Below are positions 1,549 to 20,830 of a stretch of 64,000 nucleotides of DNA, piece after piece. Numbering within the stretch: the first letter of the stretch is position 1; each line of letters starts with the position of its first letter. This DNA comes from Burkholderia sp. (GTDB lineage Bacteria; Pseudomonadota; Gammaproteobacteria; Burkholderiales; Burkholderiaceae). Below the pieces are notes generated by a model. The model was not told where the DNA came from. It was given only the letters and a program-made list of their open reading frames with translations, and made no database searches. Position numbers and translations under genes: made by a program. Where the stretch lies: assembly GCA_031253835.1 (NCBI GenBank), contig JAIRVP010000054.1, forward strand, positions 124,001-188,000. The letters are read 5' to 3'.

Positions 1549-4500
1549 TCAATACACGTCGCGCATGTAGCGCCGCGCCTTCGAAAGCCGCGCGACGTAG
1601 TCGTTCGCGGCTTCGTCCGACATCCCGCCATGCTCGGCGACGACGGCCTTCAGCGCGGTATCGACGTCCTTGGCCATCCGCGCGGCGTCGCCGCACACGT
1701 AGAAGTGCGCGCCTTCCTCCAGCCACGCGAACAGCTCGGCGCCCTGCTCGCGCATCCGGTCCTGCACGTAGATCTTGTCGGCCTGGTCGCGCGAGAACGC
1801 GAGATCGAGCCGCGTGAGAAAGCCGCTGTCGTGCATCGCACCCAGTTCGTCGCCGTAATAGAAGTCGGTCTGCGCGTGCTGTTCGCCGAAGAACAGCCAG
1901 TTGCGCCCGCGTGCGCCGCGCGCCTGCCGCTCGTGCAGGAAGCCGCGGAACGGTGCGACGCCGGTGCCGGGGCCGACCATCACGATCGGCACGTCGCCGT
2001 TCACCGGCGGCCGGAAATGCGCGGACTTCTGCACGAACACGGGCACGCGGCCGTCGTCCGCGCGATCGGCGAGGAACGTCGACGCGACGCCTTTGCGGGC
2101 GCGCCGGCCGTTGTGATAGCGCACGGCCGACACGGTCAGGTGGATCTCGCCCGCGTGCGCGCTCGGGCTCGACGCGATCGAATAGAGGCGCGGCTGCATG
2201 CGCTTCAGCATCCCGACCAGCTCCGTGCCCGACAGCTCGACCGGGAATTCGTGCAGCACGTCCGCGAGCTGCTGCCCCCACAGCCACTGCTTCAGGTCGC
2301 CCTTGCGCTCGTCGCCGAGCAGCGACTTCAGCGCACCGTTCGCGCTGCGCGATGCGATGAATGCAAGCGTGTCCGGATGCGGACGCGTGATGTCGAAGTG
2401 ACGCGCGAGCGCATCGCCGAGGCGCACGTCGCCGACGCCCGCGATCGACACCGGTGCATCGGCCTTCAGCGCGGTGACGGACAGCAGTTCGTCGACCAGC
2501 TCCGGGCAGTTGGTCGGCCACACGCCGAGCGCGTCGCCGGTTTCGTATTCGAGGTTCGCGCCTTCGGTCGACAGCGACACGTAGCGCGTATCTTTCGCGG
2601 CGCCCGGACGGTTCAGCCGCAGGTTCGCGACGAGCTTCGACGGCGCCGGATGCGCCTTCGTCGGCAGCAGCCCCGACGGGCTCATTCCGCCGGACGGCAC
2701 CGCGTGCAGCGCGGCATCGGCCTCCTTGATCCGCGCGACGACACGCTCGAGCCACTGGTCGGCATCGCGCTGGAATTCGACGTCGCAATCGACGCGCGCG
2801 GCAAGGCGTGCCGCGCCGAGCTCCGCGAGCCGCGCGTCGAGCCGGCGGCCGTGGCCGCAGAACTGGTCGTAGTTGCGGTCGCCGAACGCGAGCACCGCGA
2901 AATGCACGCCGTCGAGGCGCGCGGCGCTGCCGGCCTGCAATGCGTCCCAGAACTCGGTGCCGTTGTCGGGCGCATCGCCGTCGCCGAACGTGCTCGTCAT
3001 CAGCAGCACGTATTGTGCGCCGGCGAGCGATGCGACCGGATAGTCGGACATGCACGCGGTGCGGATCTCGAAACCCGCGTTCATCAGTTGCGTCGCGTAA
3101 TCCTCGGTCAGCGATTCGATGTTGCCGGTCTGCGACGCCCACAGCAGCACGACCTTCGGGCGCGTGCGCACGATCCGCACGCCGCCGGACGCGGCGGCGT
3201 CAAGCGGCAGCGCGGCTGCCGCGGCAACCTGCGGATGCGCGGGCAGCGAACGGCTGAACAGGCCCGCGAGCATGCCGTCGAGCCAGAACCGCACGGGCGG
3301 CGTCAACGGCGCAGCGGCCGGCAGCACGGGCACGCTGCCCTCGCGCCGCCCGGCGCTCGCCTTCAGTCCGCTGACGAGGCCCGCCACGTACAGCCGTTCG
3401 GTGTCGGTCAACGGCGGCGGCGCGAGATCGGCGACGCCGAGCGCGGCCGCGAAAGTGTCGATGTCTGCCATGTCGGATTCCTGTGAAGCAGTGGCCTGCA
3501 CCATCGCCGGCGCGGGCCGCGCGTCGTCGGCGCATGCATCGGGTTGCGCCGTTTCATCGTCGGCGGACGCGAACGCGTCCGTGTCGACGCGCCGCAGCGC
3601 GACCGCGCAATATTTCAGTTCGGGTTGCTGCGATTCCGGATCGATCGCGTCGTTCGTCACCGCGTTGATGCACAGGTCGTCGCCGTACACGTCGTTCCAG
3701 TGCATCGGCGCGAAGCAGTTGCCGCGCTGCACGCGTTCGGTCACGACGGCCGGCAATACCGCACGGCCGCGCGCCGAGCGGATCTCGACGCTGTCCTTCG
3801 CGGCGATGCCGAGCGCGCTCGCATCGTCCGGGTGCAGCTCGACGAACGGGCGCGGGTTCAGCTTGTTCAGCATCGCGACCTTGCCCGTCTTCGTCATCGT
3901 GTGCCATTGATGCTGCAGCCGGCCGGTGTTCAGCACGATCGGAAACGTGTCGTCGGGCAGCTCGGCCGGATCGACGTGCGGCCGTGCGAAGAAGCGGGCC
4001 TTGCCCGACGGCGTCGGAAACGCGATGCGCGGTGCATCGTGGCCGTCGGCGGCCGGTCGCAGCGTCTGGCTCACGCCGTCGTTCAGGTAGCGGATCGGGT
4101 GCCGCTCGCGCGCGGTGCCCGGCGCGACCGGCCATTGCACCGGGCCGTCGCGCAGCGCCGCGTGGCTCGCGCCGCGCAGGTCGTAGCCGGTCGCCGGATT
4201 CGAGAACCGCACGATCTCGTCGAACACGTCGGCCGCCGACGCATAGTCGAACGCATCGCCGAAGCCCATCGCACGTGCGACCTCCGCGACGATGCGCCAG
4301 TCGGGCAGCGCGTCGCCCGGCGGCGCGACCGCCGCGCGCATCAGCGTCATGTTGCGCTCGGAGTTGATCATCACGCCGTCGCCTTCGGCCCACAGCGCGC
4401 CCGGCAACAGGATGTCCGCGTAGCGGTTGGTCTCGGTGTCGAGGAACGCGTCCTGCGCGATCACGAGTTCCGCGGCCTGCAGCCCGGCGATCACGTTCTG

Positions 4501-16758: not shown

Positions 16759-17304
16759 TCAGCCGAAACGGCGCAGGAAGGCGTCGGCCACGGCCGGCGG
16801 ATTCAGCACTTTCGCCGATGCGTTTTCGAGCGCCTCGGCCGTGTCGTCGTCACTGATCGTCACGAACAGCGTGATGGCCGCCCGTTCGTCGCCCGTACCG
16901 AACAGGCCTTCGCGATCGAGCAGACGCAGTGCCTCGATCATGTCGGCGTGCAGTTGCCGGGAGAATTCCGCAAACCGCGACTGGACGAACTGCGGGCTCA
17001 GCACTTCGTCGGCCAGCCTGCCGCATATCGCGTTGAACGGCGAAGCCTCCGCCGCCTCGTAGGCCCATTCGGCAGAACCCCACGTGTACCAGGGATCCGG
17101 ATCGTCGGCCGCGACCGCCCCTTGCGTGCGCATCCGGCGCAACCCTTCAACCGAATTCGCCGCCGGCACCACCGTCATCGCGCCGCTGTCCGTATAGAGC
17201 GCGAACGCGTAGAAATGCTCGTCCGGGTGCAACGCCCGCAGTGCCTTGAAAGTCGCTCGCGCGGCATCGGCAATGTCCCGCTGGAAATCCGAAAATTCGC
17301 TCAT
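16759..17304 (-). CDS. DUF4303 domain-containing protein
   Basis: A 181-residue soluble protein resembling the DUF4303 family, with the characteristic region HPDEHFYAFALYTDSGAMTV, a conserved tryptophan stretch DPWYTWGSAEWAYE, and an ending rich in aspartate (VTISDDDTAEAL). No catalytic motif or membrane segment is visible. The family's biochemical role is unknown; some relatives occur near immunity-type genes, but no toxin is seen here. It is transcribed in the same direction as the efflux gene but lies downstream of its stop by 126 bases. Confidence 0.65.
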   Translation of the reverse strand: MSEFSDFQRDIADAARATFKALRALHPDEHFYAFALYTDSGAMTVVPAANSVEGLRRMRTQGAVAADDPDPWYTWGSAEWAYEAAEASPFNAICGRLADEVLSPQFVQSRFAEFSRQLHADMIEALRLLDREGLFGTGDERAAITLFVTISDDDTAEALENASAKVLNPPAVADAFLRRFG

Positions 17305-17430
17305 CGCATCCTCGTCCAGTCACCGGTCGCGCGCGTCGGGGAATACGGCTCGCGGAGAATGCATCGTCTCCCGGTATTCGACGGATTGTCCGCCAATCGG
17401 GCGTGACCCGGTACCGGGCCGCACCCGCGG

Positions 17431-18642
17431 TCATCGCGCGGCGTCCCGCGCGTCGAACACCCGCACGCAGACGGCGGCCGCCAGCGCGATCGCCGCCGAC
17501 AGCAGCATCATCGCGAGCGGCGCATAACCGGCGTTGCCGGCGGTCAGCACCGCACCCGTCAGCGCCGACAGCCCGGCGCCGCCGGCGATCGTCAGCGCGC
17601 CGGCCAGCCCCGACGCGCTGCCCGCCAGCTCCGGGCGCACCGACACCGCGCCGGCATGCGCGACGGGATGGGTCAGCCCGTTGCCGATGCCGACCAGCAC
17701 GCACGGCCCGAACCACGCGAGCGCATGCGTCGCGCCGCCGAACACGAGCGCGAGCGCGATCAGCGGCCCCGCACACGCGACGACGCGTCCGCACAGAATT
17801 GTCGTGGCCAGCGCGCAGCGGCGTGCAACACGCGCAGCCAGAAAGCTGCCGACGACGAAACCGGCCGTGATCGTCCCCATGTAGAAGCCGATCTCCGCCG
17901 GCGCGATGCCAAACAACGTTTTCGCGGCAAGCGGCGCGCCGGCCAGGAACGCGTAGAACGCGCCCGTCGAAAACGCCATGCAAAGCGCATAGGCCCAGAA
18001 ACGGCGCGCGCGGAACAGCGCCGGATACGCACGCAGTTGCTGCCGGAAGCTCGACGACCGGTTCGTATGGGTTTCGACGAGATCGAATGCGCACCAGCCG
18101 AACAGCGCGATGCCGGCCGCGCCGAGCAGCCAGAAGCTCGCCCGCCAGCCGACCGCCTGGTCGAGCACGCCGCCGAGCGTCGGGCCAAGCATCGGCGCAA
18201 ATGCAGCCGCCATCGCCGCATAGCCGATCCGGCTCGCCACGCGCGCGCCGCCGCCGGTATCGCGGATCGTCGCCATCGACACCGGATAGACCGACGTGAT
18301 CGCCGCCTGCATCAGCCGGCATGCGAGAAACACGCGGATGTCGGTGGCCATTGCGCAGCCGAGCGAACCGATCGTGAACACGCCGACGCTCGTCAGCACG
18401 ATCGGCCGCCGCCCGAACCGGTCCGACAGCGGCCCCATCACGAACTCGAGCGACGCGGCCGCCGCCGCGTAACCGCCGAGCGACAGCGCGACGAGCGCAT
18501 AGTCGGTGTGCAGGTCGCGTGCGATCGCCGGCAACGACGGCAGGAACAGGCTCAGCGGCAGCACCGAGAGCGCGCACAGCAGGATCAGCGTCACGTGTCG
18601 CGGCGACGCCGGGGCGGAATCGATCGGCCGGTTCGATGGCAA
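17431..18642 (-). CDS. Bcr/CflA-family multidrug efflux MFS transporter
   Basis: A 403-residue, 12-helix drug:H+ antiporter of the Bcr/CflA group. It has the loop motif GPLSDRFGRRPIVL after the second helix and the motif-C-like GPTLGGVLDQAVGWRASFWL after the fifth. The start is set at the TTG at 18642 because GGAGGG precedes it by seven bases; the frame is open back to 18777 but that stretch contains the leader terminator. Members export chloramphenicol, bicyclomycin, sulfonamides or amino acids. The gene has its own promoter and a leader with a short reading frame and an intrinsic terminator, so expression is probably inducible by ribosome stalling. Confidence 0.88.
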   Translation of the reverse strand: MPSNRPIDSAPASPRHVTLILLCALSVLPLSLFLPSLPAIARDLHTDYALVALSLGGYAAAAASLEFVMGPLSDRFGRRPIVLTSVGVFTIGSLGCAMATDIRVFLACRLMQAAITSVYPVSMATIRDTGGGARVASRIGYAAMAAAFAPMLGPTLGGVLDQAVGWRASFWLLGAAGIALFGWCAFDLVETHTNRSSSFRQQLRAYPALFRARRFWAYALCMAFSTGAFYAFLAGAPLAAKTLFGIAPAEIGFYMGTITAGFVVGSFLAARVARRCALATTILCGRVVACAGPLIALALVFGGATHALAWFGPCVLVGIGNGLTHPVAHAGAVSVRPELAGSASGLAGALTIAGGAGLSALTGAVLTAGNAGYAPLAMMLLSAAIALAAAVCVRVFDARDAAR

Positions 18643-18685
18643 GCGGATGCCCTCCGCGCACGCGCCGTACGGCCGTGCGCAACGC

Positions 18686-18714
18686 AAAAAAAAGCCCCCG
18701 AACGAGTCGGGGGC
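18686..18714 (-). terminator. Intrinsic terminator in the efflux-gene leader (attenuator)
   Basis: On the minus strand GCCCCCGA-CTCGT-TCGGGGGC forms an 8-bp stem followed by eight U residues (18693-18686). It ends 43 bases before the efflux start codon and about 115 bases after the predicted transcription start. Because a consensus promoter lies between it and the upstream protease gene, it is better read as an attenuator for the efflux gene than as the terminator of the protease gene. Confidence 0.88.
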
Positions 18715-18737
18715 GCATGGGTGCCGGCGAGGTGCCG

Positions 18738-18788
18738 CTACCGGACCCTGCGCCTGCGGAGTACAACGATGAAGCAAGCCGTTTTCAT
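18738..18788 (-). CDS. Arginine-rich leader peptide upstream of the efflux gene
   Basis: A 16-codon frame encoding MKTACFIVVLRRRRVR and then TAG. AGGAG lies nine bases before its ATG. The last six codons are CGC-AGG-CGC-AGG-GTC-CGG: five arginines, two of them on AGG, a codon expected to be rare in GC-rich genomes. The stop codon is 23 bases before the terminator stem. R-x-R patterns are known to stall ribosomes in the presence of macrolides, so this looks like a sensor peptide for transcription attenuation. Translation has not been shown and the frame is short. Confidence 0.7.
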   Translation of the reverse strand: MKTACFIVVLRRRRVR

Positions 18789-18835
18789 GCCGAATGGCTC
18801 CTGAATGCCGGGCTGACTGCCCGCGATATCGGACG

Positions 18836-18865
18836 ATATTAGGCGGGCGACGCCGGCCGCGTCAA
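18836..18865 (-). promoter_or_regulatory. Sigma-70 promoter of the efflux gene leader
   Basis: TTGACG (18865-18860), an 18-bp spacer and TAATAT (18841-18836) are a near-consensus promoter. It starts just after the stop codon of the protease gene at 18870. Transcription should begin near 18829, about 40 bases before the leader-peptide ATG. Confidence 0.75.
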
Positions 18866-18869
18866 CGCC

Positions 18870-20471
18870 CTAACGCGTGCGTACCGACACGAACTTCCGC
18901 GCGTTGTTGCGCTGGATCAGCACGGCGATCACGTTGCCGCCGCTCGCCTCGAGCGACTGCACGTCGTCCGGCGTCTCGAGCAGCGTGTCGTTGAGCTCCA
19001 GCACGACGTCGCCCGGCTGGATGCCCGCGCTCGCGGCCGGGCCGTGCACCGCGTCCACCATCATCCCGACCGCGAGCCCCGTCGAACGACGCTCGTCGTC
19101 GCTCAGCGCGTGCATCGTCAGTCCCAGGCGGTCGCCTCGACCGCCCGCCCCCGGACCTGGTCGTGCCGCAGCCTTCGGCGCGGCCATGCCGGCTGTCGCG
19201 GCCGGTGCGTTCCCGGCTGCCTCGTCGGCACCCGTGATCGTCAGCATCACCGGCGTGCGGTTGCGGATCACGCGAAGCGGCGCCTTCTCGCCGGGCGACA
19301 GCGCGGCGGCCAGGTCGATCAGTTCGGCCGAGTGGCCGATCGCCTTGTCGCCGAATTTCACGATCACGTCGCCGGGTTTCAGGCCGGCCGCGGCGGCCGG
19401 CGAGCCCGGCGCGACGCCGTTGACGAGCGCGCCCGCCGGCCGCGGCAGCCCGAACGCCGCGGCCAGCCCGACGCCGACGTCCTGCACGTCGACGCCGAAC
19501 GCGTTGCCGGACGGCGCACCGGGCGCGGGCGCCTGAGCCTGTTGCGCCTGCAGCTGGGCCTGCTGTTGCACCTGCAACTGCGCGCGCACCTTTGCCGCGA
19601 ATGCGATCGGGATCGCGAACGTCATGCTCGCGTAGCGATCGTTGCCGGTGTAGACCTGCACCGCGATGCCGATCACGTCGCCCGCGCGATTGAACACGGG
19701 GCCGCCCGAGTTGTCGGGATTCGGCGCGATGTCGGTTTCGAAGAACGGAAACGCGCTGCCGTCCGGCAACCGGTGCGACGTCGCACTGACGATGCCGGCC
19801 GTGACCGTGTTGCCCGATCCGTCCGGCGCGCCGATCGTCAGCACCGGTTCGCCCGCGCGGACCTTCGACGAATCGCCGACGCGCACGAACGGCAGTTTCG
19901 TCCCGTTGATGCGCAGCACGGCGACATCGCTTTGCGGATCGACGGCCAGCACCGTCGCCTTGAATTCGCGGCGGTCGGTCAGCCGCACCGTCACGTCGGT
20001 TGCTTCGTCGACCACATGGGCCGACGTGAGGATCAGGCCGTCGGCGCTGACGATGAAGCCCGAGCCGCTGCCCGATACCGCGCGCGGCGCCGTGTCGGGC
20101 GCCGGCACCTGAGAAGCCTGTGGCGCCTGCGGCCCTGGTGCTGTCCCCTGCGCGGGCGGCGGCGCGTCGTGCCGGAAGAATGCGGCGAGCGGATCGTCGG
20201 GATCGAGGATCGCGAAGGACGGGCCACCGGATTGCGGGTCGGGCGCGGTGGCCATGATGGTCACGACCGCCGGACCGTAGCGGTCGACGATCGCCGGAAA
20301 ATCGACCGGCATCGCGTACGGCACGGCGGGTGCCCTCTGCTTCATGGCGTGTGGCGCGGCAGGCGGCGCGACGGTGGCGGCAATGGCGGCCGGCGGCGGC
20401 AGAAAAACGGCAAACACGCCCCCGATCAACGCGGTGCGAAGCACGGCGCGAGCAAGCGTCTGGCGAACCAC
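18870..20471 (-). CDS. HtrA/Deg-family periplasmic serine protease with altered oxyanion motif
   Basis: A 533-residue Deg-type protease: a signal sequence (residues 1-32), a proline-rich segment, a trypsin-like domain (about 130-330) and two PDZ domains (about 345-420 and 445-530). The triad is His152 (TSAHVVD), Asp182 (SDVAVL) and Ser255 (DNSGGP). Family members have GNSGG; here the glycine two before the serine, whose backbone NH forms the oxyanion hole, is Asp253. Ala/Gln-rich repeats (VQQQAQLQAQQAQ) link protease and PDZ1. The GTG at 20471 is chosen for GGGGGAGG six bases upstream. The role is periplasmic protein quality control, or, if the aspartate blocks catalysis, a chaperone. Confidence 0.88.
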   Translation of the reverse strand: MVRQTLARAVLRTALIGGVFAVFLPPPAAIAATVAPPAAPHAMKQRAPAVPYAMPVDFPAIVDRYGPAVVTIMATAPDPQSGGPSFAILDPDDPLAAFFRHDAPPPAQGTAPGPQAPQASQVPAPDTAPRAVSGSGSGFIVSADGLILTSAHVVDEATDVTVRLTDRREFKATVLAVDPQSDVAVLRINGTKLPFVRVGDSSKVRAGEPVLTIGAPDGSGNTVTAGIVSATSHRLPDGSAFPFFETDIAPNPDNSGGPVFNRAGDVIGIAVQVYTGNDRYASMTFAIPIAFAAKVRAQLQVQQQAQLQAQQAQAPAPGAPSGNAFGVDVQDVGVGLAAAFGLPRPAGALVNGVAPGSPAAAAGLKPGDVIVKFGDKAIGHSAELIDLAAALSPGEKAPLRVIRNRTPVMLTITGADEAAGNAPAATAGMAAPKAAARPGPGAGGRGDRLGLTMHALSDDERRSTGLAVGMMVDAVHGPAASAGIQPGDVVLELNDTLLETPDDVQSLEASGGNVIAVLIQRNNARKFVSVRTR

Positions 20472-20830
20472 GGTGCACCTCCCCCGGGCAGTCGCGGCGA
20501 CGACCTGCGCGAGACGCGCAGGTACCCGACAAGCACCGGTACACGCATCCATTTATAGTCCACGCGGCCTGTTCGAACATACGAATCGAAACCCGTATGC
20601 CGGGGGATATGACACGTGCGAAGCCGCGATGGCGGTCGTTTCGAACAAAGTCGACGATTCGTCAATCCGAACATCCACCACGCGTCGACACGCGCACGAG
20701 CGGAGAATCGTTGCCGGTAGTCGTGAACGCGGACGTTGCGGTCTGCCATGGATTGTCCGCCTGTCACGTATCGCTGACAGACCGGCCCGCTATCGCCCCC
20801 CGCCCGTCGACAAGCCTGCACCGGCCCCGA
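20472..20830. other. Intergenic region, 359 bp
   Basis: No gene is supported. On the minus strand there is a possible -10 (TATAAA, near 20555) ahead of the protease gene, and nearby the imperfect dyad CATACG-N10-CGTATG. No terminator is evident for the lipoprotein gene that ends at 20831. Confidence 0.4.

Follow-up and report, generated by a model that had tools for sequence, protein, structure and literature searches.

The window (the whole 64,000-nucleotide stretch of DNA analyzed here) encodes on its minus strand a Bcr/CflA-like MFS transporter and, upstream of it, a compact leader cassette. The following features, all in window coordinates, are recognized at this locus:

18836 to 18865, minus strand: promoter-like site TTGACG-N18-TAATAT, found in a scan and as a pattern kept upstream of leaders
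18798 to 18802, minus strand: Shine-Dalgarno-like AGGAG of the leader frame, present in most of 32 listed leaders
18738 to 18788, minus strand: leader peptide frame of 16 codons, MKTACFIVVLRRRRVR plus TAG (ATG at 18788, TAG at 18740-18738)
18759 to 18773, minus strand: proposed sensing codons Phe-Ile-Val-Val-Leu (TTC ATC GTT GTA CTC), chosen from Ile/Leu/Val enrichment, synonymous Val changes, and the rare GTA
18745 to 18753, minus strand: proposed 5' arm of a helix, GCGCAGGGT, within the arginine codons (folding and arm comparison)
18713 to 18722, minus strand: proposed 3' arm of this helix, ACCCATGCGC (folding and arm comparison), which shares two bases with the base of the terminator
18694 to 18714, minus strand: intrinsic terminator stem-loop of 8 pairs, followed by 8 T (18693-18686)
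17431 to 18642, minus strand: gene for the Bcr/CflA-like MFS transporter (TIGR00710 and MFS_1 profiles), with a putative TTG start at 18642

The transporter scores 200.1 bits with the TIGR00710 (Bcr/CflA efflux) profile, just below its curated cutoff of 200.9, and is recognized by MFS_1 at 154.4 bits. Its nearest solved structures by sequence are MdfA and “Multidrug resistance protein D.” The gene upstream of the leader, which ends at 18870, encodes a DegP/HtrA-like protease on the same strand. Downstream of the transporter, in the same direction, lies a gene for a DUF4303 protein (window 16759-17304, minus strand). A Pfam scan of eight transporter neighbors reveals no consistent operon partner.

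The promoter, the 16-codon frame, and the terminator are all located, in this order, at the site where the first-pass annotation had reported them. The promoter-like site (18865-18836) is the only sigma-70-like site within 17000-20500, where shuffled sequences lead one to expect 0.2. The terminator scan finds one candidate against 2.4 from shuffles and is not significant by itself. The folding z-score of the whole leader (-1.94) is only moderately better than that of shuffles, and no Rfam family matches the window at its gathering score. The window leader rises above chance because it is conserved across relatives. In particular, the intrinsic terminator, which stands between the leader frame and the transporter gene, is conserved across an alignment of 22 leaders (A1).

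A 281-base leader query has matches in 40 of 299 genomes of the family, the weakest of them by short stretches only. A search with the transporter protein yields 52 loci, and the upstream sequences show the leader directly in front of the gene in 30 of these, comprising 16 of the 19 Burkholderia loci, both Paraburkholderia loci, and 12 alphaproteobacterial ones. One further Burkholderia locus, L032, has the leader at a distance from the gene, as described below. No leader is seen upstream in 19 of the 52 loci, which include two of the 19 from Burkholderia (L046 and L048, the latter with only 189 upstream bases) and the partial copy L069. In Burkholderia territorii (L046), the leader region is replaced; unrelated sequence at 2600-3000 ends near the transporter start. 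The search for the same frame in other Betaproteobacteria that the first-pass annotation had suggested is thus positive for Burkholderia and Paraburkholderia and negative for homologues of Variovorax and other genera: in L059, L060, L064, L068, and L071-L082, there is no leader and, at its expected position, no match to the covariance model R1 described below. Four of these loci (L059, L060, L064, and L068) have a common upstream motif, recognized by eye, that resembles TTGACTCCTGTTG-ACCCG-CACGAG; it is partly an inverted repeat and is perhaps a repressor site.

Exact matches to the promoter pattern TTGAC-N17,20-TAAYAT occur in 30 of 168 loci, and in 29 of these the match stands immediately upstream of a leader. 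The 168 loci include several that represent one place twice, and some of those with a leader deviate from the exact pattern. L024 and Paraburkholderia have the leader and transporter in other upstream contexts, with the promoter pattern unchanged. Because they are kept together in differing surroundings, the promoter, leader, and transporter look like one unit. The earlier view that the leader frame and terminator are positioned to attenuate the transporter gene is supported.

A relationship to a known RNA family comes from a lenient Rfam scan of nine loci, which finds RF02502 (“Rhizobiales sRNA Atu_C8,” typed as Gene; sRNA, with a gathering score of 50 bits) at 82 to 115 bits in five alphaproteobacterial loci, each time immediately upstream of the homologous transporter. 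At the place of the leader, the same family scores 26.3 bits in Burkholderia seminalis (L031) and 28.6 bits in Paraburkholderia fungorum (L050), both below the gathering score that the alphaproteobacterial copies exceed. The Paraburkholderia phenazinium leader gives nothing up to an E value of 1 in the nine-locus scan and 24.2 bits in a genome search. The window leader is not found by RF02502 in its own genome (G000) at an E value of ≤0.01, the two places listed there, at 29.5 and 27.5 bits, being elsewhere. A class-wide survey of 94 genomes gives hits only at 24.6 to 32.3 bits, none of them over the cutoff. Because chance hits attain such values in whole genomes, the Burkholderia RF02502 scores by themselves prove nothing.

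The alphaproteobacterial copies are more informative. Among 13 source genomes searched with RF02502, a second copy is found over the cutoff in G392, G401, and G402 and at 43.9 bits in G393. All four lie directly before ilvI, the gene for the large subunit of acetolactate synthase, and so do the only copies in G399 and G396. A search of 150 genomes of the same order yields matches at an E value of ≤1e-5 in 50, and 23 of these exceed the cutoff. Classification by the next gene, which covers the 32 loci fetched, places 29 before ilvI and 3 before the transporter; L134, whose locus is cut short, gave no leader. The ilvI leaders encode peptides such as MKISIVLIVVGRRMGRMV. Judged by gene context, in the loci looked at, RF02502 is the alphaproteobacterial ilvIH attenuator together with transporter copies of it. 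Upstream of ilvI in three Burkholderia genomes and one Paraburkholderia genome, the nearest 520 bases contain no such leader, and an origin of the window leader from Burkholderia's own ilvI leader is rejected on that ground.

The Rfam type of RF02502 agrees with a different reading, in which the leader is a free-standing sRNA or short mRNA that acts mainly in trans and the terminator is its 3' end. Two displaced copies point the same way. In Burkholderia cepacia LK29 (L032:1395-1591 and 2943-3036), the leader lies about 1.35 kb from the transporter, with an insert apparently at the U-run of the terminator, and in genome G211 (L023; G211:C2:888252-888440 and 879294-879385), the transporter starts about 9 kb from the leader; in both, the leader stays by the upstream gene and it is the transporter that is displaced. 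However, the leader accompanies either the transporter or ilvI across upstream contexts (L024, Paraburkholderia, and the alphaproteobacteria), and the displaced leader of G211, a single case, has a mismatch in its terminator and a change of an Arg to a Trp codon. A role mainly in trans is therefore unlikely, although cis attenuator and trans RNA roles may coexist.

Homology between the two groups of leaders is also seen from the Burkholderia side. Covariance model R1, trained exclusively on 22 leaders from Burkholderia and Paraburkholderia, was run against 62 further loci that total 327,290 bases; 42 of these have a leader and 20 lack one. At an E value of ≤0.01, all 12 of its matches fall on leaders, and RF02502 also matches most of these; the best is Kiloniellaceae L053 (51.1 bits; E value, 1.2e-11). 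At an E value of ≤1, there are 28 matches, 26 of them on leaders; the model misses 16 of the 42 leaders, including L055 and L056. These matches indicate that the Burkholderia leaders are homologous to the alphaproteobacterial ones. Across 200 genomes of the window's family, R1 hits 13, namely, 12 from Burkholderia and one other (L166). The latter, the sole match outside Burkholderia in this set, proved to be a plain terminator; because it attains 33.9 bits, R1 scores near 30 bits need positional support.

The tree of 38 transporters places the Burkholderiaceae within an alphaproteobacterial clade of leader carriers; it is midpoint rooted, has some weak forks, and does not include L032, L063, L069, L070, and L071-L082. 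The history that fits best, judged by these sequences, is a joint transfer of the leader and the transporter into Burkholderiaceae from an alphaproteobacterial line, which would suggest that a transporter can carry a biosynthetic attenuator with it from one bacterial class to another. The sister of the Burkholderiaceae transporters is the copy of Mesorhizobium tianshanense that carries a TPP riboswitch. Such a riboswitch replaces the leader before the transporter in two Mesorhizobium loci (L051:2800-2916 and L063:2809-2925, at 75.0 and 75.4 bits). The finding of a TPP riboswitch and a branched-chain amino acid leader on one transporter family hints that the substrate lies close to the step catalyzed by the TPP-dependent acetolactate synthase. 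In L051, the next gene, on the same strand, is a NUDIX gene.

The codons of the leader frame fall into two sets that vary in different ways. Codon usage was counted in 25 distinct Burkholderia leaders, with duplicates, L047 (19 codons), the Paraburkholderia leaders L049 and L050, and the displaced L023 set aside. Codon -9 specifies Val in all 25 and codon -8 in 24, by means of GTA, GTC, and GTT (and, at -9, also GTG); codon -10 specifies Ile in 19, and codon -7 specifies Val, Ile, or Leu in 21. GTA accounts for 46 of the 66 Val codons at -9 to -7, compared with 4% of 167 Val codons in six genes of the window. The arginine codons, by comparison, barely vary even synonymously: -4 is CGC and -1 is CGG in all 25 leaders, -5 is AGG in 23 and CGG in 2, and -3 is AGG in 23, with one instance each of ATG and AAG. 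This pattern indicates that the Burkholderia arginine codons are constrained as nucleotides and not as amino acids. A run of Ile, Val, and Leu codons is found in the leader frames except in that of Burkholderia pseudomultivorans (L047; RPVARRRKVR), where Ile and Val are only scattered. Over the six codons that precede the helix arm, the Ile/Leu/Val fraction is 0.76 in the ilvI leaders, 0.67 in the alphaproteobacterial transporter leaders, and 0.65 in the betaproteobacterial ones, and the respective Arg fractions are 0.03, 0.01, and 0.05; this comparison used 69 of 71 leaders, L116 and L058 having no arm pair.

The pairing of the arginine codons with the bases before the terminator, noted in the first-pass annotation, exists, with its 5' arm at 18753-18745, one base away from where it had been drawn. 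The ilvI leaders provide the comparative data for this helix. In 5 of 31 of them, the arm pair GCGC/GCGC is changed to GCAC/GTGC, which turns R into H, and the partner shows the compensating change each time. At six further positions of 23 distinct ilvI arm pairs, the paired fraction is 0.91 against 0.70 in permuted pairs, and none of 2,000 permutations reaches as high a value, for arms picked by complementarity, with that choice not repeated in the permutations and with relatedness ignored. By this covariation, the arginine codons of the ilvI leaders are the 5' arm of a co-varying helix.

These observations bear on the two readings in which the arginines themselves carry the signal. The first, favored by the first-pass annotation, holds that macrolides or other drugs cause the ribosome to stall on an arginine-rich (R-x-R) nascent peptide, which induces a drug pump. 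Most Burkholderia leaders do have four to five Arg codons, and the downstream gene is Bcr/CflA-like, near MdfA and multidrug resistance protein D in sequence. Among known systems, the cmlA leader is a drug-sensing leader of an efflux gene, with a short frame and attenuation before the transporter. The same combination, shared with the window leader, is described for the drug-sensing leader of bmrCD (PMC4191407). However, the Arg count in homologous leaders is only 0 to 4, the arm Arg is replaced by His in the five ilvI leaders cited above, and the leaders of Paraburkholderia and of the alphaproteobacterial transporters have RRMVR or RMG, with R-x-R mostly lost. Poor conservation of the peptide among close relatives had been named as the observation that would speak against stalling; RRRVR is in fact nearly invariant inside Burkholderia, albeit at the nucleotide level, but the amino acids are not conserved across the homologues. 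A ribosome halted on the arginine codons would, with the footprint assumed here, also cover the pairing arm and mask the helix. With Val codons that change synonymously, Arg codons held as nucleotides, and Arg lost in homologues, arginine stalling is not supported as the signal, and drug induction of this kind is very unlikely.

The second such reading, classical attenuation by charged tRNA-Arg with the rare AGG as the sensing codon, draws on the fact that AGG makes up only 3% of 112 Arg codons in the six window genes and yet occurs twice in the leader, at positions where 23 of 25 leaders have it. Against this, AGG gives way to CGG at -5 and to ATG or AAG at -3 in the few remaining leaders, the invariant CGC at -4 is the commonest Arg codon, and the helix persists in some ilvI leaders in which it contains no Arg codon. 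This is the least probable of the explanations considered.

The explanation that we regard as likely is that the leader is a ribosome-mediated transcription attenuator of the alphaproteobacterial ilvIH (branched-chain amino acid) type that controls the Bcr/CflA-like MFS transporter. Its signal is most probably the supply of valine and isoleucine and not arginine or macrolides, as the codon patterns suggest. With charged tRNA-Val and tRNA-Ile plentiful, the ribosome would pass through the arginine codons, the helix would be blocked, and the terminator would form, yielding a short RNA of about 140 nt. With these tRNAs scarce, the ribosome would pause at the Ile and Val codons, the arm in the arginine codons would pair with the bases before the terminator and take the first base pairs of its stem, and the transporter would be transcribed. 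The cargo of the transporter would then probably be tied to branched-chain amino acids. On this view, the gene that had been taken for a drug pump is probably under the control of branched-chain amino acid supply, which points directly to the nature of its substrate.

Attenuation of ilvIH and ilvBN has been published for Caulobacter (PMC4117421). For Sinorhizobium meliloti, PMC2573895 lists an ilvIH cis-regulatory element and cites Vitreschak et al. 2004. The window leader shares with the alphaproteobacterial ilvIH/ilvBN leader (ilvL; RF02502) the run of Ile, Leu, and Val codons, the arm right after it, the partner before the terminator, and, by the searches described above, homology. It differs in preceding an MFS transporter instead of acetolactate synthase and in having a Shine-Dalgarno sequence and a 5' untranslated region, whereas many alphaproteobacterial copies appear nearly leaderless by eye. 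The logic is the same as in the Escherichia coli trp leader (sensing codons, alternative pairing, and an intrinsic terminator), with no homology claimed; the trp antiterminator is clean, whereas the window leader captures its terminator only in part. The S. meliloti DUF1127 upstream frame (29 codons, with a Rho-type model), as described in PMC12218461, is a different leader from that of the window. Among the titles and opening lines of abstracts listed in searches of an open-license library, we found no report of a branched-chain amino acid leader before a Bcr/CflA-like gene.

A variant of the attenuator reading would make the system a self-protection circuit carried as a cassette from class to class: the leader would sense naturally occurring compounds that inhibit the supply or charging of branched-chain amino acids, directed at acetolactate synthase or at isoleucyl- or valyl-tRNA synthetase, and the transporter would export them. 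This may be the case but is rather doubtful.

Folding calculations bear on the ilvIH-type attenuator with varying force. Energy folding of the window and Burkholderia cenocepacia leaders picks the arm before the terminator, whereas, when no bulge is allowed, 13 of the 25 betaproteobacterial leaders have their best ungapped partner after the stop, in GGCACCGCGC or GGCATCGCGC. For the 22 aligned leaders of Burkholderia and Paraburkholderia, RNAalifold favors a local helix and shows no compensatory pairs; these leaders are conserved too strongly for the helix to be tested. When the leader is folded at equilibrium for each ribosome position, nearly all states contain the terminator; this says little, because the E. 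coli trp leader, used as a control, behaves alike, its states being likewise not separated.

Folding of the nascent chain, as made before the 3' arm of the terminator, reproduces the E. coli trp case; the results given here cover the leaders other than L049, L050, L058, L053, L061, and part of L024 and L054. For the window, a 17-bp hairpin that takes up the three leading bases of the terminator stem is predicted while the A site is no further than codon 8; at codon 9, the hairpin does not include them. The paired fraction of the terminator bases is 0.6 to 0.7 at codon 10, 0.1 to 0.6 at the arginine codons 11 to 13, and 0.9 to 1.0, in short hairpins, from codon 14 to the stop. The modeled contrast between states is less clean than that of trp, and the states differ mainly in the predicted stability of whatever holds the terminator bases. 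Within this model, nascent-chain folding supports an antiterminator, short of proof. In the alphaproteobacterial leaders, the helix has no overlap with the terminator.
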